Of a DNA stretch of 64,000 bases, positions 14,545-33,722 are shown piece after piece (position 1 is the stretch's first letter; each line of letters begins with the position of its first letter). The notes under the pieces were generated by a model. The model worked only from the letters and a program-made list of their open reading frames with translations, searched no databases and was not told where the DNA came from. Source of the stretch: Halonotius pteroides (GTDB taxonomy: Archaea > Halobacteriota > Halobacteria > Halobacteriales > Haloferacaceae); NCBI RefSeq assembly GCF_003605635.1, contig NZ_QMDW01000005.1, positions 1 through 64,000 on the forward strand, in the 5' to 3' direction. The position numbers and the translations under genes are program-made.

Positions 14545-15303
14545 TTAGTCTGTGGGGTCTGCGTCTCCTAGCGCCGCACCAGTAGTATCGCCGGCTGCGT
14601 TGAGAACATCGCGGCTCGATAGCAAGATGATACCGAAGCCCACCTTCGCGACGAGGTCTAGCACCATGAACCCAGCTGTTTCGCTATAGAGGCTGATCAC
14701 TCCGAGCCCCTCCGTGCCGAGGATCCACCATACTGGGTAGACCAGCCAAACGACTACGATGAGGTTCCGAAGAGTGCTAAACGTTGATCGCGCGGCTCCC
14801 GATAATTGGCTTGCTTCTTTGGTTAGGGTGCCGAAGAGGAAGTATAGCAACACCAATAAGAAGCCCGTCGAGACTCCCCACCAAATAATGCGATCCCCGA
14901 CAGGGCTGAGCAGCACACCGGCTGTCGATAGCGTTGCCACGGCACCGGTGCCGATCATCAGCACGTCAAGGCCAACGAGTGTAGACAGTTGGTTTCGGTT
15001 TGCCCCGGCAAGCAGTCCGAGATCGATGAGTAAGAGTGGCGTTGTGAACAGCCAATCGGTATACCGTGCCCAATAAATCGGTAGCTCCTCACCGCCGATC
15101 TCGATTGTCGTCAAGCCGAATCCAAGTGCCATGCTCAGGTAGTTTACGAATGCGATAGCAGTGATGAATATCGTGACAATATAGAACTCTTGACGGCGTC
15201 TATTCTTTTCACCCCATCCGCGAGCGATGAAGTACAGCATACCAATGAGCATTCCCGCTGTCCCTAGCCACAGCCATAATGATTCGCTGCCTGGTTGGGT
15301 CAT
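14545..15303 (-). CDS. bop: Bacteriorhodopsin (light-driven proton pump)
   Basis: A 252-residue seven-helix retinal protein. The proton-pump residues are all present by alignment to bacteriorhodopsin: Arg80 (bR R82) and Asp83 (D85, Schiff-base acceptor) in [11 protein letters not shown], Asp94 (D96, donor) in LLLIDLGLL, Glu198 and Glu208 (E194/E204 release pair), Asp216 (D212) and the retinal lysine Lys220 (K216) in DLVAKVGFG. This excludes halorhodopsin and sensory rhodopsin types. No transducer gene adjoins it. It most resembles Haloarcula-type bacteriorhodopsins from memory. The protein sits in the cell membrane and exports protons in light. It has its own upstream region of about 270 bp, downstream of a DUF5658/response-regulator operon on the same strand. 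No brp/blh or crtY gene for retinal synthesis is in the window. Confidence 0.97.
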
Positions 15304-15575: not shown

Positions 15576-15959
15576 TCATATCCAAATGAGTACCATATTA
15601 TGAAGCGACACAGCGCTCCATACGATCAAAACTGAAAGGTATGCTACGTTGCTCCAAAGATTGATGTTATGTCTCGATTGTGCGACTCCTGGAAGCAGGT
15701 ATTCACCAAGAAACAATAATAAAACCAGTGACACCGACGAGAGAAAGAATAGCCCGGGGATTACCCCGAGAGCCTCGATCACGCGTACGACAATGGGATT
15801 GGCTTCTCGCAGTCCGACACTCAGCCCATAGTACGTAAGGCTCGCATCTATAGCTCGTACTAAGATCAATCCGATGAGCAGCGGATATTTATTTTGTGCG
15901 AGTACTGCGATATTGCCGCTGGTAGCACAATTCGTGGCTGTCACGGTTCCTCGTTTCAT
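15576..15959 (-). CDS. DUF5658-like small membrane protein
   Basis: A 127-residue integral membrane protein with about four hydrophobic segments. The motif RAIDASLTYYGL followed by REANPIV is the hallmark I associate with haloarchaeal DUF5658 proteins (D-A-x-x-T-Y ... E-A-N-P). Biochemical function is unknown. The ATG lies one base after the stop of the upstream REC-HalX regulator, so the two are almost certainly translated from one mRNA. Its position between a response regulator and bacteriorhodopsin suggests a membrane role linked to that regulation, which is inference. Confidence 0.75.
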   Translation of the reverse strand: MKRGTVTATNCATSGNIAVLAQNKYPLLIGLILVRAIDASLTYYGLSVGLREANPIVVRVIEALGVIPGLFFLSSVSLVLLLFLGEYLLPGVAQSRHNINLWSNVAYLSVLIVWSAVSLHNMVLIWI

Positions 15960-15960
15960 A

Positions 15961-16554
15961 TCAGAACTGTTCTACAGGTTGGGAGCCGATACGCTGGTCT
16001 CTGACCAGCATATCGATCTGATAATCTGTCTCGAGACGCTGGAGTGTCGTATCAGCTTCTTCTTCCAACTCCCGTATTCTCTGGAGGAGACCGCGGTATC
16101 GCTCGTCCTTTTCCAGCTCTGTTTTGTCAAGGTTCGCTTCTAACGTGGCTTTCCTCGCGGTGAGTGAGAGAAGCTCTGTGAGTGAATCTTCGTATGTTAG
16201 AACCAGCTCCGCAGCTTCCACAGCTCGAAGAAGCTTCGTCCGGTCGATTGGTTTGAGAAGATAGTCATCCACATCGATGGACGCTAGGTCTTCCGTTGGC
16301 TGAACAGCTGTTATCATAATCACCTGCTGGTCATCGCCGCCTTCACGAATTGATTGTAGCACTTCCGTGCCAGACAGTCCCGGCATTCGACGATCTAAAA
16401 GGACAATATCAATCGGTTCCTCAGCAAAGATTTCCAGTGCATCTTCCCCGGAATAGGCCACATGAACCTCGAACTGCTCCTGTAGCCAAATACCGAACAA
16501 GTCAGCGAGATTCTCTTCGTCTTCGACGATCAGAACGGTACTGGAATGGGTCAT
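15961..16554 (-). CDS. REC-HalX response regulator
   Basis: 197 residues. Residues 1-120 are a receiver domain: the acidic pocket is VEDEEN, the phospho-acceptor Asp is in IVLLDRRMPG, and the conserved Lys is in YLLKPID. Residues about 125-195 form the helical HalX domain (LLSLTARKATLEANLD, then a coiled coil). There is no DNA-binding domain, so it probably acts by protein-protein contact, for example with the HalX-containing Bat regulator upstream. It follows the HalOD1 gene by 10 bp and precedes the DUF5658 gene by 1 bp, in one operon. Confidence 0.92.
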   Translation of the reverse strand: MTHSSTVLIVEDEENLADLFGIWLQEQFEVHVAYSGEDALEIFAEEPIDIVLLDRRMPGLSGTEVLQSIREGGDDQQVIMITAVQPTEDLASIDVDDYLLKPIDRTKLLRAVEAAELVLTYEDSLTELLSLTARKATLEANLDKTELEKDERYRGLLQRIRELEEEADTTLQRLETDYQIDMLVRDQRIGSQPVEQF

Positions 16555-16564
16555 CTGTTCTCAC

Positions 16565-16888
16565 TCACGCATCTCGTTCGACGATGACACGCACTGTTGA
16601 TCCATACAGAACCGTCACAAGTGCGTGCTGAAAGAGAAACTCCACAGAGGGCATATGGCTGGTCTCGTCGACTGCACGCGTTTTGAACAAGCCATCTAAC
16701 TTGTCTGCATCCACGAATTCGAATACCGGAGGCGATCTGTTGAGGTCCGGCCAGTCTTCGACAGCTTCCATAAGTGTCTCAATAACCGCCTCCGAGACAC
16801 AAACGGGTCTGTCAAATTCCCGTATAATGAGCGAATCCGTACTCCATCCTTTGGGTCTGGACTCTCGGTGCGGAGAGCTTTCGGCCAT
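16565..16888 (-). CDS. HalOD1 output-domain protein
   Basis: A 107-residue single-domain protein. The stretch SEAVIETLMEAVEDWPDLNRSPP, then VDADKLDGLF and a hydrophobic FLFQHALVTVLYG strand, matches the HalOD1 output domain common beside haloarchaeal two-component genes. No catalytic motif is seen and the function is unknown. It is the first gene of a three-gene operon with the REC-HalX regulator and the DUF5658 protein. The 158-bp gap upstream, with a TATA-like stretch, probably holds the operon promoter. A paralogue with a longer C-terminus is at 43806-44282. Confidence 0.8.
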   Translation of the reverse strand: MAESSPHRESRPKGWSTDSLIIREFDRPVCVSEAVIETLMEAVEDWPDLNRSPPVFEFVDADKLDGLFKTRAVDETSHMPSVEFLFQHALVTVLYGSTVRVIVERDA

Positions 16889-17046: not shown

Positions 17047-19755
17047 TCACGGCTCGGTTGAATCCTGATAGAGAGTCGTCAGCAGATTAGACTCAGCAGC
17101 TCGAAGATGCTGGTTGAACGTTGACTGTGCGATATCGAGAGTCTTGGCAATCGACGTTGAATCTGCATCCCGCGGCCAATTAAAATACCCTGCGTAGAGC
17201 GCCGTCTGCAAGACTTCTTTTTGCCGGGCGGTAAGAGCTCCATCAAGACGTGCTGAGAGAGAGGTATTGGTTTCTCCCCGCTCACTATCCAGTTTGGATA
17301 ACAGGGTGAGATCGCTGTAGTCTTCCCGGAGTGAATTCAGATATTCTCCGACGTCGACTGTGAATGGCACGGTTACTGAAACCACGATCTCGTTGGACTC
17401 GGAAGCGTTTGTGATTTGATTTATCGCAACTCCTTGGTCGGTCAGTTTCTCGCAAAAGCTGCTGTTCCGCACCGGGATTTTACAGTAGATACCATTTCGA
17501 GAGTCGCTCAAAATGACCGTCTCTGGATCGAAACCAGCAGCTTCGAACGCCTCGGGAGTCACGTTTTCTCCGGTCAATCGCGCGAACAGGAGGTTATGTG
17601 GACTATCAGTCACTACATTCAACACTTCGAGATCCGTCTCTATATCCGAAACAAGAGTTCCAAGGCCAGTATCGTCCTCAAACTGGATCTCAAGGATTGT
17701 GCCCCCACCGGATAGAAGCGCTGCTTTTTGACGGAGTGCTGATATCCTGTGACCTATTATCTGACCGAGCTCTGTGAGGGCTGCCACCTCTTCTTCAGCG
17801 AAAGCGTTTGGCAGTTTGGAGTGGACTTCTAATACGCCAAGGATCGAAGCCTCGCTCTGTAGTGGTACAGCCACAATCGAGTTAGTGCCATTCTTCAGTG
17901 CGTCTTGTTCCCACTCCGTTTCGGAGCGAGCGGTCATTAAGTCGCTCTCCACGACCGAATCTCCAATCCTGTATGCCCGTTCAGCAGGTGGCAATGTAGA
18001 GTTACTCCGTTGGTTATTGTCATCTGCTGAACCGTCGTCCGCTCCCACTTTTTGATATGTGAGCGACTCCGTTTTGGCTCTGACCTCGATCGTATTCGTA
18101 TTAATATCTTTTTTTCCGACCCAGGCCCCACTAACCAGATCCAGGTGAGCTAGAGCATTACAGACCTCTTGCTCCAGTTCGTCTCGTGTATTTGCACTGA
18201 TAACCGTGGCACTTATCGACCGTATCAGTGTGTTGATGCGATCCAGTCGTGTCAGCCGTTCGTTTTGCTCGTTTAACCGCTGGTCGCGTTCCCGAAGGGC
18301 CTCCTCTTGTGCTGTTCGTTCGAATGCGCTTGCTGCGTTCGCTGCTAACGTTTTTGCCAATTTGTTCTTTCTTGAGGAAATCTCTGGCGTCGTGGTCATC
18401 CCCACCAACAGAACCCCCTCTGCTTCTAGTGAGTAGAGACGCCACGACGAGAACTCCTCTGCTAACCACTGGCTCGACCGAGTATCTGCAACGTCTTCGT
18501 CTTCGGGGCTCAACTGTTCCGTTCGAGTCACATAGGTCGTCCAGACTGGTTTGTCTCCTTCAGAGATAGAAGGAAGTTCGATTTCAGTACCATCCTCCGT
18601 GGATGCGTGTGCTAGTGGGACCAAGTGTCCCGTGTGCTCTTCTCGTGTATATATCGCGGCAAACTCGAATCCGAGTTCACTTATTGCGGCAGTGGCTACG
18701 GTCTCACCGATGCTACGTTCCGAGTCCGCTGTCATTAGCTCGCGGGAAACCGCGTGCAGATCCTCAAGCTGTTGTTCATACGCGTATCTCTCTGTAATGT
18801 TGTGGTAGTGTTCAATTCGCCCGCCTGCATAAAGACCAGTTTGAATCGGCCCGCTCCAGTACTCCAACCACTGCTGCTCTTTCGAAGCCGTCTCAGGGAT
18901 ACGGACGATGGCTTCGACTTCGGAATTCATATTCTCTAGAGAATGAGTTACGAGGTCACACAGTGTTTGCTCACCTGAGGGATATTCCTGGTACGATTCA
19001 GAAGCAATTCGACTGTAGTCAGACCCTTGGATATCGTCTCTATCAACTCCGAGTAATTCTTCGGTAGTTTCGTTAGCCCACACCACCTGTCCGTCACGAT
19101 TAATTACAACGACCCCTTCCTCTGATGTGTCCAGTACGTCTTCAGTGAGGGACTGGTACTGCTGTTGTTCCCTGCGCTCTGCTGCTGTTCGTTGCAGGCG
19201 CTCAATAGCCACTCGAAAATCCCTATCTGGCAGGTTCTGGAGATACCGTTCGACTTTATCCTCGAGTTCTGTGATTTGGTCCGTAAGTGTCTGGTATTTC
19301 GGGCTCGTTTCGAGGGTATCTGCGTCCATGACGGCTTCCAAGGTCGATTGGCGTTCTATCAGCGAGAACAACTCTTGCAGATCCTCGTTATACTCTGCAC
19401 GAGTGAGCATCTGGGAAATAACGTCTTCGAGGTCGTCAGCTTCAACGGGTTTTTCGAGATACGCATCGAATCCCATTTTGACGATATCGAAGTCCGGTGT
19501 CACCGCAGAGACAATGACCACTTGACAGTTCGACTCATATTGTCTGAGTCGCGTGAGAACCTCTCCGCCGGATAACCCGGGCATCATCCGATCCAGAAGA
19601 ACGATATCGACAGTCGCATCGAACGCTTCCAAGGCTTCTTCGCCAGAGTACGCGCTTTCGACAACATAGCGGTCTGCGAGCCACTCTGCATACAACTCAG
19701 CCAAATTTTGGTCATCCTCGACGACCAGAATTTTTGTGTTTCCGTTTTGGGTCAT
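17047..19755 (-). CDS. REC-HalX-PAS-GAF-GAF-Bat response regulator
   Basis: A 902-residue regulator that combines a phosphorylation input with a DNA-binding output. The order is REC (residues 1-120, Asp in IVLLDRMMPG, Lys in YLEKPVE), HalX (about 125-195), PAS (about 205-335), GAF (about 345-500), a short coiled coil, a second GAF (about 525-690), the bacterioopsin-activator region (about 700-830), and HTH_10 (LTARQKEVLQTALYAGYF ... QSTFNQHLRAAE). The start lies 3 bp from the stop of the nine-PAS histidine kinase, so the kinase is the obvious phosphodonor. That kinase is broken by an insertion, so this regulator may be orphaned or fed by another kinase. Likely targets are in the neighbouring bop/HalOD1 region, by analogy with Bat. 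Confidence 0.92.
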   Translation of the reverse strand: MTQNGNTKILVVEDDQNLAELYAEWLADRYVVESAYSGEEALEAFDATVDIVLLDRMMPGLSGGEVLTRLRQYESNCQVVIVSAVTPDFDIVKMGFDAYLEKPVEADDLEDVISQMLTRAEYNEDLQELFSLIERQSTLEAVMDADTLETSPKYQTLTDQITELEDKVERYLQNLPDRDFRVAIERLQRTAAERREQQQYQSLTEDVLDTSEEGVVVINRDGQVVWANETTEELLGVDRDDIQGSDYSRIASESYQEYPSGEQTLCDLVTHSLENMNSEVEAIVRIPETASKEQQWLEYWSGPIQTGLYAGGRIEHYHNITERYAYEQQLEDLHAVSRELMTADSERSIGETVATAAISELGFEFAAIYTREEHTGHLVPLAHASTEDGTEIELPSISEGDKPVWTTYVTRTEQLSPEDEDVADTRSSQWLAEEFSSWRLYSLEAEGVLLVGMTTTPEISSRKNKLAKTLAANAASAFERTAQEEALRERDQRLNEQNERLTRLDRINTLIRSISATVISANTRDELEQEVCNALAHLDLVSGAWVGKKDINTNTIEVRAKTESLTYQKVGADDGSADDNNQRSNSTLPPAERAYRIGDSVVESDLMTARSETEWEQDALKNGTNSIVAVPLQSEASILGVLEVHSKLPNAFAEEEVAALTELGQIIGHRISALRQKAALLSGGGTILEIQFEDDTGLGTLVSDIETDLEVLNVVTDSPHNLLFARLTGENVTPEAFEAAGFDPETVILSDSRNGIYCKIPVRNSSFCEKLTDQGVAINQITNASESNEIVVSVTVPFTVDVGEYLNSLREDYSDLTLLSKLDSERGETNTSLSARLDGALTARQKEVLQTALYAGYFNWPRDADSTSIAKTLDIAQSTFNQHLRAAESNLLTTLYQDSTEP

Positions 19756-19758
19756 AGT

Positions 19759-22700
19759 TTACGACACGATACCCGGTTTTTGTGACTCCTCTCGAGTCGG
19801 TCGGGTGGGAACTTCCAGTCTGATCTCACTCCCATCGCCCGAGGTTTCAATTGAAATCGACCCCCCGACACGAGTCACCAATGCCCGCACCATCCACAAT
19901 CCGAGTCCCTGCCCGTGACTTAGCGGCGTTTCTTCGCCAGTTTCGAGGAGATTTTTCTCCATTTCCGGGAGTCCAGGCCCAGTATCGGAAACACAAACCT
20001 CTACCCACTGTTCATCGGCTTGCGAGACACTGATCTGTACGGATGGATGCCCAGTATCGTTCGCTGTGATGGCGTTCTCAACGAGCTCAGAAATCGCTTT
20101 ATCAAGCTCACTCGGTATTTGTGATTCTATATCGTGGTCGGCTGTGATAGTGATGTTCGCATTAGCATGTTCGTCTTCTTTTTTGTCTTGAATATCCTCA
20201 ACTATTTGTTGAGCACTCTGGTGGGAAGCGAGAACGCTCTCGCTCGTGAGTATATTCTGGAGCTCTTGGGTCTTGTTTGCCATTCTTTCCCACTTGTCGA
20301 GAATGTCTCGGATCGTCGCAGCGCGCTGTTCACGAGTGTCTGTCTCTGTGTCCGACGCAAGCAGATCGACATACCCTCTCAGTTTCGTCAGATCATTTCG
20401 GATATTGTGCCGCATAATCCGGTGTAAGACCTGGACGTGTTGCCGACGTTGCTCCTGGGCTGTGATATCTCGTGCCTCGAATACCAGGAAGCTAAGCTCC
20501 CCGTGCTGGCTTGAGATCGGCTTGACCGAGAAGTCGAAGTTGGCGAGTCCATCAACGCCTTCTGCTTCCACGTTGAACCGAACGAATGAACCCGAAGATG
20601 CTTGAGTAACTGCCTGTCTGATTTGAGTTTGCACTTCAGACGAATGAGCGAACAGAGGGCACTCCCAGAGTGGTGTGCCTCTGCTCTCCTCGATACGTAT
20701 GCCGCCGAATTCCCTGAGGGGGTCGTTTAGCTCGAGGATTTCACCACTCTGGGTCATCAGCCCCGTCAATTGGAACGTTTGATTGAATACGGATTCGAAT
20801 TTTTTCGTTTGTTCTCGTATATTACTGATGTCACGTATATATAGCAGAAACCCACCAATTGCTTCATCGTCAAAGAGATTCCGTCCACGTGCCTCTACGG
20901 TAATCCACTCGTCATCCGCATCCCTTGCTTGGAACTCTAGCTGAACACTTGAATCGGGATCCTCCACGGCGGCGAAAAACGCTTCCATTAGACGTTCCCG
21001 ATCCTCAGGATGGATATAATCAAAGACACTCTCTTGATTTAGCTGAGTTGGATCATATCCAAGAACCCGTTCAGCAGAGCCACTAAGATAGGTGAAACAC
21101 CCATCGCGATCTAAGATAGACACGACGTCGACTGATTCCTCAACGAACCGCTCTGTTCTACGCCGCTGTTGACGCTGGTTCGTAAGATCTCTGATGACCA
21201 TCCCGTATCCCAGGAACACTCCATCTTCAGTTTGAAGGGGGGCATATGAGACTTCTGCAGGAAACGACGATCCATCTTGACGGACTCTCTTTCCTTCGTG
21301 AGTACTTTCTCCTGCGAGTGATGCCTGTTTTAATAACCGATCAGCAATCCCACGTATTTGATCCTGTTCAGGGTGTAACTCTGCTGCTGGCATACCAATT
21401 GCAGCTTCTTTGTCATATCCAAATATGGCGGCTGCTCCATCGTTCCAGCTGTCGATCTGTCCATCGTCATCGAGAAGTACAAAGGCATATTCTTCGAGAC
21501 TTTCCGAGAGGATATCAAATCGCTTCCGCTCCTGTTGAATCTGCCGAATCCGTCGTTTTTGCTCCGTTATGTCCGTGGCAATCGCGACAAGTCTCTCTCC
21601 AGTTTCGTCATCGGGTATCAGAACAGCATCTGTGTGTATCCATCGCATTTGTTCGTTGGCATCAATAACTCTGAAATCCGCAGACAAGTCGTTGATCTCC
21701 CCGACTTGTTCTAGTGACTCACGAACACGATCTCTATCTTCTGGCGCGACGATCTGTATGAAGTCTTCATACTTGTCCGGATCATGGCCAAGTAAATCGA
21801 CAAGCGTGTCGTCGAATGATATCTGATCCGTCTCAAGACTCCACTCTGCAATACCAGTGTCCGTTCCAGAAAGAACCAATTCGAGTTTCCGGTTCTGTTC
21901 TGCCAGGCTCCGAGTCCGTCGCCTCCGACCTGTTACGTCCTGCTGTATGCCAATAAACTTCGAAAGCGTCCCATCTGCATCAGTGACTGGCGTGACAGAC
22001 AATCGATTCCAGTATTCACTCCCGTCTTTTCGGTAGTTTTTCAGCTCTACTGTTACCGGTTCACCGGCCGCAATCGCCTCTCGAAGCTTCGATAGTTCCT
22101 CTGGGTCTGTCTCGGGTCCCTGGAGGAAACGTGGATTACGACCTAAAGCGTCGTCTTCCTGGTAGCCAGTAATGTCGGTGAATCCTTTATTTACGTACTC
22201 GATCGGGTTGTCATCTCGCTGTGGGTCGGTGATCATGACCCCAACATTCGAGGAGTCGATCGCTTGCTCCTTGAGTTCGAGTTCACGTTCCCGTTGCTGC
22301 CTTGCAGTTTCATCGCGCACAGTACAAACGAGGGGACCATCATCGATGATAGTCAGAGAGATCTCGGCCGGGAACGTCGTTCCGTCCGGTTGGGATCCGG
22401 TTACTTTGCCCCGCCAGTGCCCCTCCGACTCAAGAACAGGGAAGGCTTCCGACTCGAGACGCTCTACCTCATCTTCGTCATAGAGCATCCGCCAGGAGTT
22501 CCCGATGAGTTGGTCAGTATCATCGAATCCATACATATCCACGTGTGTCTCGTCGATGTAGGTGTATTCTCCATCCTTGAGAATAGCAAAGCCGTCTTTC
22601 GCATCCTCGACAGCCTGCTGGAACGTCTCTAATTCGCGACGGCGCTGCTCACGGGGCGTAATATCACGACTGGAAATAACGAGCGATTCGACTCCTGATC

Positions 22701-23907
22701 CCCCTATAACAGGGCGGATGGTCCCAGTAAAGAACCGAATCTCACCATCCGGTGTTGGGAATTCGGATTGGAAACTGACGTACTCGCCTGACGCCGCTCG
22801 ATCGATCCAGTCTTTTAGATCGTCCTGTAGAGTCTGAGAATGTGACCACCACTCCCCCTCCCAAATCGGTTCCCCCAACATCTCATCTTTAGCGTGCGAA
22901 ACGTACTCCAGGGCTGTTTCATTCACATCGATCACTTCACCAGTGGTTTCCAGTAATCCGACCAGCATCTCAGGATCTTCGAACACCGACTCGAAACGCC
23001 GCTCGTTCTCCCGAAGTTCCGCTTGACGCCGATATTTTTCAGACACGTCACGGACAACACAGACGATTCGATCGTCTTCCAAGCGTGTCAGCGATAGTTC
23101 GGTCGGAAATTCTCCCTTGCCTTCTGGAGATGCAGTTACAGTACCTCTCCACTCTCCATCGGACCAGAGGGCTGAAAGCGCCTCATCCTCTATGCGCTCG
23201 ACCTCGACGGGATCGGTGTACAACTCATGCCAGGTTTGCCCGAGTAACTCGTTTTTGTCCTCGAACCCGTATATGTCGGCATGCGTTTGATCAACGTACG
23301 TGTATTCCTCGTTCTCCAAAATAGCAATCCCATCACTCGCGTTCTCGATAGCCGATTTAAATGACTCCAGACGACGTCGGCGTTCCCGCTGTTCCGTCAC
23401 ATCTCTCGCAACGGTGTGCATATAGGCCGCCCCACCGCGTTCAATCCGACGGTTCGAGAACTCCACATCGATTTTACTGTCGTCGCTCCGAAGCAGTTTC
23501 GCTTCAGTGGTTGCTGGTTCGCCGGCTAAAATTTGGTCGTGGTAGTCCCGATAGGCATGTAAGTCGATCTCTTCGTGAAGATCGGGAATACGCATCGAGA
23601 GGAGTTCCTCTCGCTCATAGCCAGTTAACTCGCAAGCAGCCTGATTTACTTGGACGAAATTCGCATCTGAATCACTAATAAAAATGGCATCGTTGGAGCC
23701 TTCAAACAACGTGTGTGTCCAATCGCGTTCAGCCTGTAGCTCCTCGTGTCGTTGGATTCGTGAGATTGCAGCTTCAAGATTCGAGGCAACGAGTTTTGCC
23801 AGTTCTGAGTCTTTCTCGGTAAACGCATCCACTTCGGTGGCTCCGACACTCAAGACGCCGAAATCTGAGATTGGCACAAGAATTTCGCTCCGAATCGGGG
23901 TGTCTGA
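19759..23907 (-). pseudogene. Nine-PAS histidine kinase, 3' part of IS-interrupted gene
   Basis: The larger part of a sensor kinase whose 5' part is at 25030-25356. It begins inside a GAF domain (DTPIRSEILVP ... GVLSVGA) and can start only at an internal GTG (23877). Nine PAS domains follow. The fifth is LOV-like (YVNKGFTDITGY, then GRNPRFLQG at 22143-22117, then NYRKDGSEYWNR) but has Pro where LOV photoreceptors have the flavin-adduct Cys. The C-terminal kinase core has the H-box in RIMRHNIRNDL, the N-box in SELVENAITAND, DTGPGLPE and HGQGLGLWMV. It is predicted to be soluble, with no membrane segments. The gene is directly upstream of, and 3 bp from, the REC-HalX-PAS-GAF-Bat regulator. The kinase core is intact, so a shortened kinase could still be made from the internal start. 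Confidence 0.9.
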
Positions 23908-23913
23908 TACTGA

Positions 23914-24477
23914 TTAGGACGAATCATTACCAGTTAGATACGGCCAAATATCTGGCTCGCTAACCGCTTTCGCTCCTCGTGGAATATACTCCTCCAGCGT
24001 TTCGAGGTCTGGAATCAGCCGGTACTTGAACCATTCTTGCAGTTGATCCCAGCATCCTTCGACAGCGTTCAATTCAGGGAGTTTCGGCGGGAAATACCAG
24101 ACTTCGAGGTCATCTCCACGTACGCACAAGACCGAACTGTCTCCGACAGTTTCGGTCTCGCGCTCTCCGCTCACATGTTCCCAGAGATCTCTCGCGTAGA
24201 AGTAACTCGCCCGATCCAAGAAGACTACTAATTCTTCGCCAAATCGCTCTTTTAGTGCTTCTAACAACCGAATTCCGTGGTGTCGTGTGAGGTTCTCTTC
24301 CGTCCAAGTGTAGAAACTCTCACCGTCGTCGGTGACAGCACCAAGTACTGTCACCGAATCCCAAGAGCTGGCTGTCTCTATCGTTGGGTTCGAGCCGATT
24401 GGGAACCAACCATTTCGCTGAACAGTACCAACGTGCTTAGTGAACTGATCGACGACAGCAACCGTTTTTTCGCTCAA
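23914..24477 (-). CDS. IS630-type transposase, catalytic half (orfB)
   Basis: 187 residues with the DDE catalytic region: Asp in TVAVVDQFTK, Asp in VVFLDRASYF, and the later acidic residue in PPKLPELNAVEGCWDQL, as in IS630/Tc1-mariner transposases. It lies one frame back from the upstream half and overlaps its end. Its only start is TTG at 24477, so it is probably made by -1 frameshifting at the slippery site rather than on its own. The stop codon lies a few bases inside the element's inverted repeat, as is common for compact elements. Confidence 0.85.
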   Translation of the reverse strand: MSEKTVAVVDQFTKHVGTVQRNGWFPIGSNPTIETASSWDSVTVLGAVTDDGESFYTWTEENLTRHHGIRLLEALKERFGEELVVFLDRASYFYARDLWEHVSGERETETVGDSSVLCVRGDDLEVWYFPPKLPELNAVEGCWDQLQEWFKYRLIPDLETLEEYIPRGAKAVSEPDIWPYLTGNDSS

Positions 24478-24983
24478 CTCAGGCCGTTTTTTTCGACTGT
24501 CCCTTCGAACTCTGCCTTCTCTTCTGGGTCAGCTTCGTGATGACGTGGCCGTGCTGTCCGCAAGGACAGCCCGGCCTTTTCCAACAGCTCGTACGCGTAT
24601 GCCTTACTGTACTCAACATCGTACTCCTCTTTGACGTAGTGAAGCAGGAGCTTTGGAAACCACGCTTGCTGTTCGTAGCCAAATTCAGTCGGTGGCTGTT
24701 GCAATTCTTCGAACAACTGTTCGCGTTCTTCGGCTTCAATCTTAGCTGGCCCTCCCGGCCGAGGAGCATCAAAGGGAGCCTGCTCAAGCGGTTGTTCCTC
24801 AAACTGATCGAGCCAGTTACGGATCGTCTTCTCGACAACGCCGTGACGGTCAGCCAGCGTATACAAATAATCGCCCTGCTTGCGCCCAATCGCCGCGAGA
24901 ACACGTTCTCGCGGCTTCCCTTCGTCTATTTCCTCCTTCAGATCTTGGAGCTCCTCAACTGTGATATCGTCAAGCCTACTCAT
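24474..24983 (-). CDS. IS630-type transposase, DNA-binding half (orfA)
   Basis: 169 residues from ATG 24983; the open frame extends further upstream but out of the element. It has a homeodomain-like N-terminal HTH (RERVLAAIGRKQGDYLYTLA ... KTIRNWLDQF) and a second helix-turn-helix-like region, PTEFGYEQQAWFPKLL, followed by YSKAYAYELLEKAGLS, typical of the winged-helix part of IS630 transposases. It ends just after the A AAA AAC heptamer. Continuous reading by -1 slippage gives a protein of about 355 residues, the normal size for this family. Confidence 0.85.
   Translation of the reverse strand: MSRLDDITVEELQDLKEEIDEGKPRERVLAAIGRKQGDYLYTLADRHGVVEKTIRNWLDQFEEQPLEQAPFDAPRPGGPAKIEAEEREQLFEELQQPPTEFGYEQQAWFPKLLLHYVKEEYDVEYSKAYAYELLEKAGLSLRTARPRHHEADPEEKAEFEGTVEKNGLS
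24486..24492 (-). promoter_or_regulatory. Slippery heptamer for -1 ribosomal frameshift
   Basis: On the minus strand the codons GAA AAA AAC contain the canonical slippery heptamer A AAA AAC in the correct register. The orfA stop lies 9 nt further on, and a -1 shift enters orfB. The joined peptide reads VEKN-RPELSEKTVAVVDQ, which fits uninterrupted IS630 proteins. Confidence 0.75.
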
Positions 24984-25029
24984 TACCGTCCATAGTGTGT
25001 GGTCTGGTAAATTACTTACCCAAACCGTA

Positions 25030-25356
25030 TGAATTATACGTGCCATCGGCCTCGTGGACATCGTCGAACGCTTCCGGACGATTCTGTCTGTACACACGCC
25101 CGGCGAGAGAATCAAGTGGAAGGATAGGTGCATCGCCGATCACCTCTTGTGCCTCAGTTGATTCGGCGATTGGGCGGAGTTCGTTTCCTTCCTCATCGTA
25201 TTCCCAGATCGCCGAAAGAGGCGCATCAAAATTGAGATCCAACATTCGGACCGCAACGACAGAGACGTCCTCAATAGAACCAGCTTGATTCAGTTCCGAA
25301 GACAACTCAAGAAGTCCCGCAGGTGTGTGTTCCGTATACGCGTCTCCATCGCTCAT
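25030..25356 (-). pseudogene. 5' part of the IS-interrupted histidine kinase
   Basis: It encodes the N-terminal 109 residues of the kinase at 19759-23907: a short leader and the first half of a GAF domain (AGSIEDVSVVAVRMLDLN, then SAIWEYDEEGNELRPIA and LAGRVYRQNRPEAFDDV). The true sequence ends at TYNS; the frame then runs into the element for five codons and stops. Translation therefore yields a useless GAF fragment unless the element excises. The start ATG 25356 faces the divergent winged-helix regulator, whose start is 130 bp away, so the shared intergenic region should hold both promoters. Confidence 0.85.
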
Positions 25357-25486
25357 ACATCCGATTTTGTTGTTCCGCTGTATTATGTTTTCGATTAGAG
25401 AACCATTTCATATCGGCCCCAATAGAATTAGTTCGATAGATATAGGGTACAACTATTCAGCCTTGAGAATCAATCGTAATAACAAG

Positions 25487-26188
25487 ATGTCGACGGAAGC
25501 AGTTGAGGTCCTCGGGCGGAAATACAGCGTTGATATACTGCGGGCGGCAAGGGAACCGCGATCAGTTAGCTGGCTGAGTCAAGAGCTAGATATTCCGATT
25601 GCCACCTGTTACAGACGTGTGAAGGAACTCTCTGAGAATATGTATTTAGAAGAGGTCACTGCCGACGAGAGCAGGGATAGAACACAGTACTGTCGAACAG
25701 CGGATAGTATTGAGGTCAACTTCGCATCTGATCTATTACTTACTGACTCACGATCTGGACATACTCGAGAACTACCAAGGAATACTATACCGTTAGATTC
25801 CGTTACGCTCAATGAGTTCTCCCAAACGATTGATATTGTCGAAGCTTACTTTGGGAGTTTGATCGACGATGTTGCTGTTCATGCACCCATTTCACGCCGG
25901 CAGCTTGTGGCGGTGCTGGCACGAGCCCAGCTCTCGGGTAGCCAACTCGCCAGCGGGAGACTCACTGATAACGGCGAAATCATTCATCAGTCGGACGACG
26001 AGACACTCTTTTGGCTTGACGGTGATTTCTGGAAGAATTTGGGCGGGGTCCACTGCTTGAACGCAGACGAGGGACGAACGGCCAGAGAAGTCCATCGCCG
26101 ACTCATCGAGGCTATCGGCGGCGGTGTCGCCGACTACAATCGCGAGCGCGATCCGTTTATTCTCATTAACGGAACTCCTGGCTGTTGA
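25487..26188 (+). CDS. Winged-helix (ArsR-like) transcriptional regulator
   Basis: 233 residues from ATG 25487; the frame is open to 25325 but the upstream part overlaps the divergent kinase promoter. Residues about 1-85 are a winged helix: LGRKYSVDILRAAREPRSVSWLSQEL (helices 1-2), then ATCYRRVKELSE as recognition helix, and a wing (YLEEVTADESRDRTQYCR). Residues about 100-233 form an unrecognised domain. It may bind the divergent promoter of the kinase operon, as is common for this arrangement, but no operator is evident. The coding region is AT-richer than the genes to its right. Confidence 0.75.
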   Translation: MSTEAVEVLGRKYSVDILRAAREPRSVSWLSQELDIPIATCYRRVKELSENMYLEEVTADESRDRTQYCRTADSIEVNFASDLLLTDSRSGHTRELPRNTIPLDSVTLNEFSQTIDIVEAYFGSLIDDVAVHAPISRRQLVAVLARAQLSGSQLASGRLTDNGEIIHQSDDETLFWLDGDFWKNLGGVHCLNADEGRTAREVHRRLIEAIGGGVADYNRERDPFILINGTPGC

Positions 26189-26861: not shown

Positions 26862-29800
26862 GTGAGACGCTCGCTGGTGTGGCTCGCTGTCGTCCTCGTC
26901 GCCGTCGTGGGCCTCACGAGCAGTGGACTCGTGGGTGTCGCGGCGGCACAGGACACGGCACCGACGTGTTCCGCGGTGTCGTTTTCTGGCGGTAACGGTA
27001 GCGCAGACGATCCCTACGAGATCGAGAACGTGAGCCAGTTGCAGTGTATCGAGAAAGATCTCGATGCACACTACGAACTCGTCTCCGACGTCGATGCCTC
27101 GGCGACGAGCGGGTGGAACGACGAGAAGGGATTTGAGCCGATCGGTAGCTGCACCGAAGTGGGTGAGGCGGATCCGTGGGAGGAATGTTCTGGCCAGCAA
27201 TTCACCGGGACGTTCGACGGTAACAGTCACACCGTGTCCGGGCTCACAATTGACCGCCCTGATACGAACGGAGTGGGGCTGTTTGCCGCTGCTGACGAAG
27301 CACGGTTCACAAACCTGCGGCTCGCGTCAGTGAACATCACTGGTGGCGAGAATACCGGCGGATTGGCCGGACAGCTAGTATCCGATAAAATCAATACCAA
27401 GGATGGATTCGTCGGGAACGTCTCGGTCAACGGGATCGTAACCGGCGAACTCGATACGGCCGGTGTCGTGGGGCACGGGCTTGACATCACCCTCGAGGAC
27501 CAGATCGTGTTCATCGGCACAGTCGTTGGCTCCGACGAGGTCGGTGGAATCCTCGGTCGCTCGTCGGAGGCGACGGCGGTGAGCACGAGTTACGTCAGAG
27601 CGACGGTGGAAGCGAAAGGAGATGAGCTAGGACGGGTGTACGGAGATGAAGCCGTTGCTGGGGGTCTCGTCGGAAACAGTGGTAATCCATCCGACTTCAC
27701 GAACGTCTACACTGTTGGGTCTGTCAGTGGAGACGTGGCCGGTTCGATCGTTGGAGGCGGGAACGCCCCCTCAAAGTTCGAAGACGTGTACTGGGACACC
27801 GACAAGGGTCCAAACGATGCCGTCGGGGGATACGAACCTGATGGTGTCGTTACCCCACTATCCACAGCCGAGATGCAGGGCGTCACCGCCGAGGAGAATA
27901 TGGATTTCGACTGGGCTGGAACGTGGCAGAGCGTCGCCGGCGACTATCCGGTGTTTCAGTGGGAAGCCGCTGCCGTCGGAGAGTCGTCGATCGCCGGTAT
28001 CGATGCAACGGACGTGACTGCGGTAGTAAATGAGACCGGCGGAGTGACCGTCGTCGCTACCGACGAGTTCGGTAACCGCCTCGAGTCGATGTCCATCTCT
28101 GTCGACGCCACAGACGGACTCTCTGGGATCGCCACTGACGACACGGAAACGACCGATTCGAACGGTCAAGCTACGTTTACGTTCACCGAGGAAACGGCTG
28201 GGACCTACGATCTAACCTTTTCAGCGGACGAATCGATAACCGATACTGCGACAGTGACCATTCGGGAAGGGGTCAATTGCGCAGTGGTAGAGTACAGCGG
28301 TGACGGGTCCACTGATGATCCATACGAAATCGACTCGCTGGCGAAACTCCAGTGCATCAACCAAGATCTTGATGCGCACTACGAACTCGTCTCCGACGTC
28401 GACGCCTCGGCGACGAGCGGGTGGAACGATGAGAAGGGGTTCGAGCCGATCGGGAACTCCAGCCAGCCGTTCACCGGCACGTTCGACGGAAACGACTCGA
28501 CGATTTCGGAGCTCGTAATCGACCGACCGCAGACGGAAGGTATTGGCCTCTTCGGTCACGTCGGCACCGATGGGGAGGTACGAAACGCCACGTTGGAAGC
28601 GGCGGAAGTCACCGGGGGAGATGAGGTCGGCGTCGTAGTCGGAGACAGTGCCGGATCGGTGACGAACGTGACGGCCTCTGGGAACGTCACTGGTGACGAG
28701 TACGTTGGCGGGGTGGTCGGATACGCGGATAGTGGCGTTATATCCGACTCGCATGGCTCTGTAACCGTGAACGCGACCAACTCTGTCGGTGGATTGGTCG
28801 GACAGGGGTGGTCCAACGCTGCGATACGAGAGTCTGTTGCGACCGGATCAGTGAATGCATCGGGATCTTGGGCCGGTGGACTCGTTGGCGATATCTACGG
28901 TGACAGTAGTATCAAGAACTCCATGGCGAGCGGCAACGTCACTGGTTCTGGTGACGTTGGCGGATTGATCGGCTACAGTGAGGGAGTCGTGACGAACGCG
29001 ACTGCTGCCGGGACTGTCTCAGGTTCCGATAATGATGTCGGTGGGCTGATCGGGTATACTGCCAGTGGGGAACTGGCGAATGTAACTGCGTTCGGGGACG
29101 TCTCGGGCGAAGCTAATGATGTCGGCGGGCTAGTTGGTGATAACTCAGTCACAGTTACAAACGCTACGGCGTCTGGAAACGTTTCAGGAGAATATGATGA
29201 AATCGGTGGCCTAGTCGGTAATAATTCTGGATTGGTAACGAATGTAGCTGCTTCCGGAACTGTCACTGGCGACGATGAAGTCGGGGGGCTGATCGGTGAT
29301 GATGATGCATCGGTAGTGCGGAATGCAACTGCCTCTGGGAACGTCACTGGTGACACTGAAGCCGGTGGGTTGATCGGTGTGAGTTCTGGAACGGTGAGAG
29401 ACGTCACGGCGTCTGGGAGTGTCACTGGTACCACTGATGTCGGCGGGCTGATCGGTGATAGTTCCGAATCGGTAGTGCAGAATGCAACCGCCTCTGGCAA
29501 TGTCACTGGTGACGAAGAAGCAGTCGGTGGACTAATCGGTGACGTAGACGAGGGGGGGAAGATCCTCAACTCGTACGCAACCGGTGATGTTTCCAGTAGC
29601 GCGAGTTGGGCAGTTGTCGGCGGGCTCGTTGGCGACAGCTCTGGCGAGAGAATCGCTGATTCGTTTGCAACTGGCAACGTCACGACCGATGGTGAAAACG
29701 TCGGCGGACTGGTCGGTATCCATCGTAGCGGAAACATCACGAACGTGACTTCGTCCGGAGCCGTCTCGGGCACGAGTAACGTCGGGGGACTCATAGGAAA

Positions 29801-32800
29801 AGTTGCATACAGTCCAGACACGGTCATTCGCAATGCCTCCGCAACGGGCAACGTGACTGCCAGTGGCACGAAAATCGGAGGATTCGTCGGGCTCAGCGCG
29901 AGCGGAAGCGGCACCGTCATCGACTCAGTTGCCCGCGGCGATGTGAACGTAACAGAAGGGTATTCACGTTCTACAGCCCTCGCGGGGGGATTCATCGGCA
30001 AGAACCAGTTCACCACGCTGACCAACGTCAGTGCAAGTGGTGACGTTTATGTGCCTGATGCAAACCGCGTCGGTGGGCTCATCGGCGAAAACAATGGAGA
30101 GAGTCTCACCGATGCTATCGCACGTGGTAATGTTAGTGGAGAGGGCGACGTTGGTGGGCTTATCGGGCGGGATGTGGGCCGTAGCGAGCTGATTGTTAAC
30201 GCAACTGCGACGGGTCAGGTCACTGCGACAGGTGATGACGTTGGTGGACTTATCGGCTTCTCTGCGCGTCCAAAAACGTTGGAAAACATACGCGCAACGG
30301 GACATGTGACGGGTAATAAAGAAGTCGGTGGGCTCGTTGGTGATGTCCGTAGTGGAATTGAGCTTACCAACGCCACCGCAAGCGGCGACGTCGAGGGAAC
30401 CCAATACGTCGGCGGCTTGGCCGGTGAACTTTACCAACCGACTATTACTGATGCCACGGCGACTGGGGACGTGACCAGCACCGCTACAGCCGGCAGTAGT
30501 TACGCAGGGGGGCTAATCGGAGAAATGCCTGCCGGCACAATCTCCGCCTCCGCCGCTACAGGAAACGTGACTGCCGCTGGGAGCCATGTTGGCGGGCTGG
30601 TCGGTTTGCTACAAGACTCGGAGTTCTCCGATGAGCCAGCACAGATCAACGAGTCCTACGCGACCGGTGACGTCACTGGCAACCAATCCGTGGGCGGACT
30701 CGCAGGTAAAGCAATACGGACCAACATCACGAACGCCTACGCGACCGGGAGCGTCGACGGCAATGCATCGCTCGGTGGCCTCGTTGGGAACGTTTCCGGC
30801 GGTAACGTCACCCTCTCGTACGCGGTCGGTGCTGTCGCCGACGAACCTGCTGCTGGCGGTCTGATCGGCACAGTCCACAACTCGCCAACGGTGCAAAACA
30901 CGTACTGGGACAACCAGACCACCGAGCGGACCTCTTCGGCTGGCGCTGGAGCGCAATCGCTTCTCACTGTCGGGTTGAAGGGCGACAATGCGAAGACAAA
31001 CGCGACCGGCTTCGACTTCCAGAACACGTGGGATATCCGCAGTGGGGCGGCAGTTTCCTACCCGTATCTGCGGAACAACACCCAATCGCCGCCACCGGGG
31101 CTTGAGAGTCCGTTTGCTGGCGGCACTGGATCTGAATCGTCTCCGTTCGAGATCAAAAACTGGTATCATCTTGACAACGTAAGTCGGCTCCCGGGTGCGA
31201 ACTACACGCTTGTTGCCGATCTTGATTCGAATACGACAGGCTACGACGAGGTGGCTAATGCGAGTGCGAACGACGAGAAGGGGTTCGAGCCGATCGGAAG
31301 CAGCGAGCAGCGATTTGTCGGAACGTTCGACGGACGCAACCGAACTATCTCGAACTTATATATAAATAGGAACTTAAATTATGTTGGACTATTCTCTTAT
31401 GTTGGCGAAGGCGGAGACATATATAATCTTACAGTTGTAGACGTGAACATCACCGCAGAGCTCCATGTCGGCGGAGTTGCCGGGACTAACGGCGGCACAC
31501 TTCGTAACATCTCGGTAGGTGGAACAGTCAGGTCCACCTCTGAGGGGTATTCAAACAGTGGTGGTCTTGTCGGTGAGAACACGGGTACGGTCAGAAGAGC
31601 GACCGCTGACGTGACAACTAGTGGTACAAAGACCGTCGGCGGTCTCGTTGGAATTAACGGTGGTACGATCAAGTACTCGAGTGCGAACGGAAACGTATCT
31701 GGTTCCCAATCCGTCGGTGGACTCGTCGGTGTCAATTTTGCGAGAGGAAAGACCGCTACTATCGAACAGTCCTCTGTGAGTGGCGATGTAACAGGGGACG
31801 AGTTCGTGGGAGGGCTCGCTGGCCAAAATTTCAATAGCGTATTAAATACCTCTTCGGCAAACGGAACGGTAACTGGCGATAGCTATGTCGGGGGCCTCGC
31901 CGGAGTCGCTGTTGGCGGGCAAATAACCGACGCAAGCGCCAATGCGACCGTTGAGGGTACCACGTCCGTGGGCGGCTTGGTCGGAACGACCCGCAACGAG
32001 ACGGTCGTCCACAGCTACGCGGTCGGCAACGTCACCGGCGACACGGCCGTCGGCGGACTCGTCGGCAATCACACCGGAGCGAACGCCAACGTAACCGAGG
32101 CGTATGCCGCCGGGACAGTCTCCGGGGGAACCGATGTCGGCGGTCTGATAGGCACGACGCAGGCGTCGCCGACGGTCGAGAGCGCCTACTGGGACACCGA
32201 GACGACGGCCCAATCGTCCTCGGAGGCCGGCACCGGTCTCAACACCAGCCAACTCAAGGCCAACGAGAGTCTGGCCGGCTTCGACTTCCAGCACACGTGG
32301 GATGTCGTGGACAACGAGACCCACAGCTCCTACCCGTATCTGCGGAACAACACCCAATCGCCGCCACCGGGAATACACGAGCTTGCTCCCACACCCGGGG
32401 CGGGCGGCGATGGCAACGACGATCGCGACAGCGGTCAAAGCAACGAGGAAAGCAGCGACAGTAATGACAACAGCGGCAACGGCGCCAGTACCAGCGGTGG
32501 TAGTGATAGCGACGATGGCGACAACGGTCGTCCGAGCGTGAGCGTCCGCTCGATGGCACAACCCGACGCCGCGGGAGCGCAGGACGGTGAGTCCGATGTG
32601 GCCCCGACTTCGACCACCGGGTTCGTCGTCTCGATGCGGAACGTCGACGCTGGCGAGCAGATTGCCGTCGACTTCACCGAACAGCGCCGACCGACGGCTA
32701 GCCAACCCACAGACGAGGAGGCGCCGTCGACGGAGAACGAGGAGACACCATCTGGGGAGTCGGCGCCCCGCAACGTCCAATCAGACGGCCTCGTGCTCAC

Positions 32801-33722
32801 CGTCAGCGAGGAGGGCGACTACGAACTTACCGTGACCGCACGCGACGTCGATGTCTTCGCCACGGCCGCCGAATCGAGTGATGGCGACGCCGAGCCTTCC
32901 GACGGAGAGGACACGGATCGTGGCGAGGGCGAGTCATCCGGCGAGGTGGACCTCTCGACGGACGCCTTCGACGAAGAGAGCACACGGTTCGTCGAGGCGA
33001 CTTCCGCTCGACCCGTCGGCTTTATCACCGTCGAACACACCTTCGATTCGGACGACCTCGAGACGGCGACACACCGGTTCCGTGTTCGCAAGAGCTACTT
33101 GGCGGCCACTGGCGCGACCGCCGAGAGTGTCGCCCTGTACCGCGAGGAGCCGGAGGGCTACCGCGCGCTGTCGACACGGCGCGTTGGCGAAGACGACGCG
33201 TACTACTACTTCGAGGCGGACACGCCGGGCTTCTCGACGTTCGTGATCGGCACAGAGGCCCCGATATTCGACCTCGGAGGGCCAACGCTCGAGCAAGCCG
33301 ATGTGGAGACCGGTGTGATCGACGCGAGCGTCCCGGTCGAGAACATCGGGACCGAGCCGGGGACGTACACGGTTCGACTGCGCGGTGACGGTGTCGTCCT
33401 CGCAGAGACCGAGGTGTCGGTGCCGGCGGGTGAGACCGTCGAGGCAACCGTGCGAGCGACCGTCCCCGACGCCGATGGGCTGGCGCTTACCGTCGCAGGA
33501 GAATCGTTGGGAGAGTTCACCGTCGAAGACAGCGATGCCGATGGGTCCGAACGCACGACAGACGCGGGAGTACAATCGACCGCGGACGCCGAAGATGCCA
33601 CCGATGAGCCCTCCGACACAGCCGACGGATCGGCCCCTGGTGGACGATTCCTCGTCCTACTGGTAGCTGCTGTGCTGGTCGTGGTCGCCGTGTGGGCACT
33701 GCGGCGAAGGGACGAGCCGTGA
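26862..33722 (+). CDS. Giant GLUG-repeat surface protein, second copy type
   Basis: A 2,286-residue exported protein. GTG start; signal segment at residues 5-30 ending GVAAAQ. Two early halves share the block YEI-x5-LQCI ... DLDAHYELVSDVDASATSGWN, followed by GLUG units. About forty GLUG units (VGGLIG/VGGLVG every 25-35 residues) fill residues 150-1800 and should form a long beta-solenoid. A Big_1-like Ig domain sits at about 390-470. After a Ser/Asp/Gly linker comes a PGF-pre-PGF domain (about 2030-2134), then a CARDB-like domain and a C-terminal membrane helix with RRRDEP. Unlike the 241-10023 protein there is no PGF tripeptide before the helix (APGGRF instead), so it is probably a membrane-spanning protein and not an archaeosortase substrate. 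Role: adhesion or cell contact, by inference. Confidence 0.92.
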   Translation: MRRSLVWLAVVLVAVVGLTSSGLVGVAAAQDTAPTCSAVSFSGGNGSADDPYEIENVSQLQCIEKDLDAHYELVSDVDASATSGWNDEKGFEPIGSCTEVGEADPWEECSGQQFTGTFDGNSHTVSGLTIDRPDTNGVGLFAAADEARFTNLRLASVNITGGENTGGLAGQLVSDKINTKDGFVGNVSVNGIVTGELDTAGVVGHGLDITLEDQIVFIGTVVGSDEVGGILGRSSEATAVSTSYVRATVEAKGDELGRVYGDEAVAGGLVGNSGNPSDFTNVYTVGSVSGDVAGSIVGGGNAPSKFEDVYWDTDKGPNDAVGGYEPDGVVTPLSTAEMQGVTAEENMDFDWAGTWQSVAGDYPVFQWEAAAVGESSIAGIDATDVTAVVNETGGVTVVATDEFGNRLESMSISVDATDGLSGIATDDTETTDSNGQATFTFTEETAGTYDLTFSADESITDTATVTIREGVNCAVVEYSGDGSTDDPYEIDSLAKLQCINQDLDAHYELVSDVDASATSGWNDEKGFEPIGNSSQPFTGTFDGNDSTISELVIDRPQTEGIGLFGHVGTDGEVRNATLEAAEVTGGDEVGVVVGDSAGSVTNVTASGNVTGDEYVGGVVGYADSGVISDSHGSVTVNATNSVGGLVGQGWSNAAIRESVATGSVNASGSWAGGLVGDIYGDSSIKNSMASGNVTGSGDVGGLIGYSEGVVTNATAAGTVSGSDNDVGGLIGYTASGELANVTAFGDVSGEANDVGGLVGDNSVTVTNATASGNVSGEYDEIGGLVGNNSGLVTNVAASGTVTGDDEVGGLIGDDDASVVRNATASGNVTGDTEAGGLIGVSSGTVRDVTASGSVTGTTDVGGLIGDSSESVVQNATASGNVTGDEEAVGGLIGDVDEGGKILNSYATGDVSSSASWAVVGGLVGDSSGERIADSFATGNVTTDGENVGGLVGIHRSGNITNVTSSGAVSGTSNVGGLIGKVAYSPDTVIRNASATGNVTASGTKIGGFVGLSASGSGTVIDSVARGDVNVTEGYSRSTALAGGFIGKNQFTTLTNVSASGDVYVPDANRVGGLIGENNGESLTDAIARGNVSGEGDVGGLIGRDVGRSELIVNATATGQVTATGDDVGGLIGFSARPKTLENIRATGHVTGNKEVGGLVGDVRSGIELTNATASGDVEGTQYVGGLAGELYQPTITDATATGDVTSTATAGSSYAGGLIGEMPAGTISASAATGNVTAAGSHVGGLVGLLQDSEFSDEPAQINESYATGDVTGNQSVGGLAGKAIRTNITNAYATGSVDGNASLGGLVGNVSGGNVTLSYAVGAVADEPAAGGLIGTVHNSPTVQNTYWDNQTTERTSSAGAGAQSLLTVGLKGDNAKTNATGFDFQNTWDIRSGAAVSYPYLRNNTQSPPPGLESPFAGGTGSESSPFEIKNWYHLDNVSRLPGANYTLVADLDSNTTGYDEVANASANDEKGFEPIGSSEQRFVGTFDGRNRTISNLYINRNLNYVGLFSYVGEGGDIYNLTVVDVNITAELHVGGVAGTNGGTLRNISVGGTVRSTSEGYSNSGGLVGENTGTVRRATADVTTSGTKTVGGLVGINGGTIKYSSANGNVSGSQSVGGLVGVNFARGKTATIEQSSVSGDVTGDEFVGGLAGQNFNSVLNTSSANGTVTGDSYVGGLAGVAVGGQITDASANATVEGTTSVGGLVGTTRNETVVHSYAVGNVTGDTAVGGLVGNHTGANANVTEAYAAGTVSGGTDVGGLIGTTQASPTVESAYWDTETTAQSSSEAGTGLNTSQLKANESLAGFDFQHTWDVVDNETHSSYPYLRNNTQSPPPGIHELAPTPGAGGDGNDDRDSGQSNEESSDSNDNSGNGASTSGGSDSDDGDNGRPSVSVRSMAQPDAAGAQDGESDVAPTSTTGFVVSMRNVDAGEQIAVDFTEQRRPTASQPTDEEAPSTENEETPSGESAPRNVQSDGLVLTVSEEGDYELTVTARDVDVFATAAESSDGDAEPSDGEDTDRGEGESSGEVDLSTDAFDEESTRFVEATSARPVGFITVEHTFDSDDLETATHRFRVRKSYLAATGATAESVALYREEPEGYRALSTRRVGEDDAYYYFEADTPGFSTFVIGTEAPIFDLGGPTLEQADVETGVIDASVPVENIGTEPGTYTVRLRGDGVVLAETEVSVPAGETVEATVRATVPDADGLALTVAGESLGEFTVEDSDADGSERTTDAGVQSTADAEDATDEPSDTADGSAPGGRFLVLLVAAVLVVVAVWALRRRDEP

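Follow-up and report, generated by a model that had tools for sequence, protein, structure and literature searches.

The locus lies on the minus strand of the window, the whole 64,000-nucleotide stretch of Halonotius pteroides DNA that was analysed. A histidine kinase gene is divided there into two open reading frames by an IS630-related insertion sequence of 1122 bp (23908-25029, minus strand). The 5' kinase fragment (25012-25356, minus) is an ORF of 114 amino acids, in which 109 kinase codons, including those for the N-terminal half of a GAF domain, are followed by five codons of the element and a stop. The 3' kinase part (19759-23904, minus) specifies the second GAF half, nine PAS stretches (TIGR00229), HisKA and HATPase; its ORF, counted from a GTG at 23877 as the first start codon to the end at 19759, has 1372 amino acids. 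The Pfam GAF_2 profile is matched from position 13 to 76 by the 5' piece and from 86 to 135 by the 3' piece; thus, one GAF domain is cut in its middle. The core of a haloarchaeal histidine kinase is present: HATPase_c is intact (E = 2e-17) and the H-box, MRHNIRND, can be read directly, the HisKA match being weak (E = 7e-5). The sequence-only reading had described this same ORF layout, with a GAF domain cut by an IS630-type element and an undamaged H-box, ATPase and set of nine PAS domains. One of the PAS domains (21880-22272, minus) is LOV-like, with the YtvA family as its best match; in its motif, GRNPRFLQ, a proline replaces the photoactive cysteine, the remaining LOV motifs are kept, and the proline is conserved across all of the kinase alleles that were read. 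A flavin-binding proline LOV domain has been described in a halobacterial Bat protein (PMC4682037).

The kinase gene belongs to a conserved module. Three base pairs downstream of its stop begins a Bat-type response regulator (17047-19755, minus) in which all parts of the REC-PAS-GAF-BAT-HTH_10 architecture are found, together with a HalX domain (REC-HalX-PAS-GAF-BAT-HTH_10); cotranscription is therefore likely, and a polar effect of the insertion is possible. Domain searches and gene order in relatives add a HalOD1-domain protein (16565-16888), a REC-HalX response regulator (15961-16554) and a DUF5658 protein (15576-15959), all on the minus strand, and a divergent HTH protein beside the kinase start (25325-26188, plus) is also kept in relatives. 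The order divergent HTH, kinase, Bat-type regulator, HalOD1, REC-HalX, DUF5658 recurs with near-constant spacing in several genera, which makes the kinase and the regulator plausible partners. A bacteriorhodopsin-type gene (14545-15303, minus; closest solved structures bacteriorhodopsin 4pxk and cruxrhodopsin-3) sits beside the module. Among the relatives examined it is found there only in Haloplanus rallus, 99.6% identical; the others have transposase genes, TnpB genes or nothing at that position. On the other side lies a very large ORF (26862-33722, plus; 2286 amino acids) with many GGLVG/GGLIG-type repeats and a C-terminal hydrophobic stretch, resembling a surface protein.

When 170 genomes of the family were searched with the DNA sequence, the whole 3' kinase part was found in nine other genomes, at 93-96% identity in seven and at 83% in two. 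In all nine, the 5' part is joined directly to the 3' part in the single continuous reading frame that the window kinase lacks. Excising the element and one TGA (TCA on the minus strand) from the window regenerates their arrangement. The two ORFs are parts of one kinase gene, to which the element has been added, and an origin of the halves in different kinases is ruled out by these uninterrupted orthologues. The junction TYNSDTPIRSE, predicted from the window alone for relatives lacking the element, is read in seven of the nine alleles (six of the seven at 93-96% and one of the two at 83%). A further allele of the 93-96% set has TYNSGTPIRSE, a point change, and the most distant one has THNPDSPIRSE. 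The sequence-only reading, which held that the halves come from one kinase and rejoin in frame, is borne out by the nine genomes; the outcome by which it stood to fall, a differing junction sequence in element-free relatives, did not occur.

The comparison alleles come from other genera because genomes of the same genus yielded no comparable kinase at the DNA level, short PAS matches apart. The gene is thus patchily distributed and probably moves between genera. It is found at 93-95% identity on plasmid records of Halorubrum, Halorientalis and Haloplanus, and identities of 93-96% across genera on records annotated as plasmids indicate that the module has spread on megaplasmids of several haloarchaeal genera. 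Two further copies may be recorded here. The kinase on a Haloplanus rallus plasmid (L158) is annotated in two pieces, with one extra T in a T5 run; it was considered as a second natural knock-out and set aside, since the added base falls in a homopolymer and could be an error of sequencing. The Haloglomus irregulare kinase (L057) is 741 bp (247 codons) shorter, with overlapping matches, as if PAS repeats had recombined.

The insertion looks recent. With the element and one TCA removed, the kinase gene comprises 1491 codons (stop included), free of frameshifts and internal stops. dN/dS between the window allele and its closest intact counterparts is ~0.2, the same as between intact alleles, and of the codon changes found in the window allele alone, 13 are synonymous and 3 nonsynonymous. 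The earlier suggestion of a recent disruption agrees with these values and with the existence of uninterrupted alleles: the gene bears no apparent sign of decay since the insertion.

What the insertion does to signalling can be judged from the reading frames. The window allele no longer offers a continuous reading of the full-length kinase. The 5' piece would give at most a half-GAF peptide of 114 residues, from which a complete GAF domain could not be made; from the 3' part there may come a nine-PAS kinase without GAF, or no product at all. The kinase could have been lost, or only its GAF input; the regulator could be lost through polarity, or expression could be driven by the insertion sequence. 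That the regulator at 17047-19755 is deprived of its input, as had been proposed, is one possible outcome among several. It is conceivable, if rather unlikely, that signalling is altered instead of lost, the Bat-type regulator still being phosphorylated by a nine-PAS kinase that lacks GAF and is made by transcription from the element or by read-through. The kinase is oriented as the transposase is, its PAS, HisKA and HATPase domains are all intact, and the first GTG of the 3' ORF (23877) lies 37 bp past orfB, the distal transposase frame, with GGAG 10 nt upstream. The orfB stop, moreover, shares the frame of the kinase remainder and precedes the first residue of that remainder by three codons (TAA TCA GTA TCA GAC ACC). 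However, translation of orfB, which needs frameshifting, is probably low. A scan for consensus promoters, made with a bacterial model, was uninformative and gave no more matches than shuffled sequence. An equally tentative proposition is that the kinase is becoming a pseudogene and that the whole module is no longer under selection in this lineage. The window kinase is broken, the H. rallus copy has its +1 T frameshift and the H. irregulare copy is shortened; against this stand the 1491 codons without further decay, the excess of synonymous over nonsynonymous private changes, and the homopolymer setting of the H. rallus frameshift.

An artefact of assembly or strain mixture, with the element really located elsewhere or present in only part of the population, is very improbable. 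The assembly is a draft of 115 contigs with an estimated contamination of 3.9%, but the element occurs in full only once in it, well within a contig of 152 kb, and has on its flanks an exact duplication of 3 bp like those seen at its relatives elsewhere; no intact (empty) kinase junction was found in the rest of the assembly. A relative of the element with 77% identity, truncated at its ends, lies on another contig of the same genome (L002, contig C29). With one full copy and one truncated relative at that distance, a repeat-induced misjoin is unlikely.

The element carries two overlapping transposase frames on the minus strand. orfA (24474-24983) holds the helix-turn-helix region (HTH_33/HTH_32) and matches positions 5-134 of NF033545 (E = 9e-27); orfB (23914-24477) matches NF033545 (E = 5e-22) and contains DDE_3 (E = 5e-34). 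Each frame alone stays under the 100-bit cut-off of NF033545, as is expected of a split ORF, and together they possess the HTH and DDE_3 homology of IS630 transposases. The terminal inverted repeats are TAGTG..CACTA in relatives; those of the window copy, which read TACGG..CAGTA on the minus strand, are imperfect. Directly before the orfA stop, and in the orfA frame, lies the heptamer A_AAA_AAC (24492-24486), a putative site of -1 frameshifting from orfA into orfB. Most related elements have a run of A followed by C at the same place, and one of them (L130) has an additional A in the run, its two ORFs forming a single frame of 368 amino acids. From these features we infer that orfB is expressed by -1 frameshifting; frameshifted transposases have been recorded for IS630 (PMC5009743). 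Other IS630-annotated haloarchaeal elements (L191-L194, L219-L220, L205-L208), with ends TAATGAG..CATTA and GAGTGGTC..GACCACTC, are often placed centrally within palindromes, and several of them lack an evident direct repeat; they are possible hairpin-targeting groups.

Duplication of TA counts as a hallmark of IS630/Tc1/mariner elements. IS630-type elements are described as duplicating TA (PMC2170065). The window element instead lies between two copies of TCA (25030-25032 and 23905-23907; TGA on the plus strand), where uninterrupted alleles have a single TCA and no TA. The sequence-only reading gave the TGA repeat but did not remark that three bases are anomalous for an IS630-type element. 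Ends were determined for 25 haloarchaeal copies, made up of the window element and its relatives: 23 have identical 3-bp TNA flanks (14 TCA, 8 TGA, 1 TAA), and the unequal flanks of the other two (L145 and L155) may be explained by later recombination. For empty sites, 392 genomes were searched with sequences in which the flanks of another copy had been joined around a single TNA. Unoccupied counterparts turned up in many genomes for two more insertions, L021 (TGA) and L011 (TCA). The nine of these sites that were retrieved show no gaps close to the junction when aligned with the joined flanks, and the triplet is that of the insertion in seven, TAA in one and TGG in one. Empty sites are thus known for three independent insertions (kinase, L021 and L011). 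As a control, comparison of multi-copy elements by the same method gave TA for four other haloarchaeal IS630 groups (C_G216, D_G066, F2_G226 and H_G260); it gave TNA for B_G216 and F1_G226.

The TA duplication of the IS630 family was looked for and is absent, and for this reason the element is called IS630-related and is not placed as a standard member of that family. That it really duplicates TA, the outer TNA repeats being due to chance or part of a longer terminal repeat, is hardly credible even though TA does stand at both of its ends, since the three independent empty sites have TNA once and no TA at the junction, and since TNA varies among copies (TCA, TGA or TAA) and agrees within a copy, as a duplication must; the same empty sites rule out element ends placed inside the terminal TA. 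Formally, one could read the 3-bp repeat as a 1-bp duplication flanking longer ends (ATAG..CTAT), which no DDE enzyme is known to make. A 3-bp TNA duplication is at odds with how the IS630 family has been described in print. Searches of a mainly open-access literature found no IS630 element with a 3-bp or TNA duplication.

A tree of the DDE domain, built without three poorly covered rows, places L209, a TA element, with the window clade (19 rows), and L198, also a TA element, with L195 and L211, which are TNA rows; both groupings have starred support. In this small sample, well-supported branches force at least two changes between TA and TNA, in one direction or the other. The DDE triad is present in the window clade, but the distance between its second D and its E is not the ~34 residues of the IS630 family: it is 51 in the window element and in most members of its clade (42-56 in three) and 34 in other haloarchaeal groups. 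The DD51E arrangement of L209 and the window clade corresponds to about 17 extra residues between D2 and E. Catalytic spacing is not supported as the cause of the TNA duplication, because L209, a TA element, has the longer spacing according to the alignment, and L195 and L211, which are TNA elements, have the short one. We lean towards the view that haloarchaeal IS630-type transposases differ in how far strand transfer is staggered (2 bp at TA or 3 bp at TNA), with at least two changes, one in a DD51E clade and one in a DD34E clade. If this is so, transposases that differ in stagger are natural pairs for finding what sets duplication length in the superfamily.

These facts combine into a reading to which we assign a probability of about 0.9: a young 1122-bp IS630-related insertion at a TCA in the GAF-coding part of a plasmid-type kinase gene, with a 3-bp duplication, by a member of a clade that staggers at TNA. 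Apart from the insertion, this haloarchaeal histidine kinase gene of the plasmid type is normal; the element would have entered at its TCA and duplicated the 3-bp target, using a transposase probably made as an orfA-orfB fusion through -1 frameshifting. The chemistry of the clade is probably cut-and-paste of the IS630/Tc1/mariner kind, with strand transfer presumably staggered by 3 bp at TNA instead of by 2 bp at TA.

The split kinase is itself an ordinary, well-documented type of disruption by an insertion sequence, useful mainly as an intact/broken allele pair of a widely shared plasmid signalling module. Haloarchaea commonly have kinases with multiple PAS and GAF domains (PMC5847659), and the window kinase (GAF, nine PAS, HisKA, HATPase) is like the cytoplasmic ones among them, differing only in its large number of PAS domains and in the insertion. 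The downstream gene shares the REC-PAS-GAF-BAT-HTH_10 architecture of halobacterial Bat (bacterio-opsin activator) regulators (PMC5847659). What sets it apart from them is an additional HalX domain and its pairing with a giant kinase.

The element matters more than the kinase that it splits: related haloarchaeal elements that differ in using TA or TNA would make it possible to test what determines target choice and stagger. The IS1031 group of the IS5 family also duplicates a 3-bp TNA. Its transposase belongs to an unrelated family, and its likeness to the window element is confined to the target. The window element is also like IS630/Tc1/mariner elements (IS630, ISY100), which share the NF033545/DDE_3 transposase, HTH_33/HTH_32, a length of about 1.1 kb, imperfect inverted repeats and, within the IS630 family, known frameshifting of the transposase (PMC5009743). 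What separates the window element from the IS630 family is a 3-bp TNA duplication in place of TA (PMC2170065), and from the other haloarchaeal IS630 groups, a D2-E spacing of 51 residues against 34.
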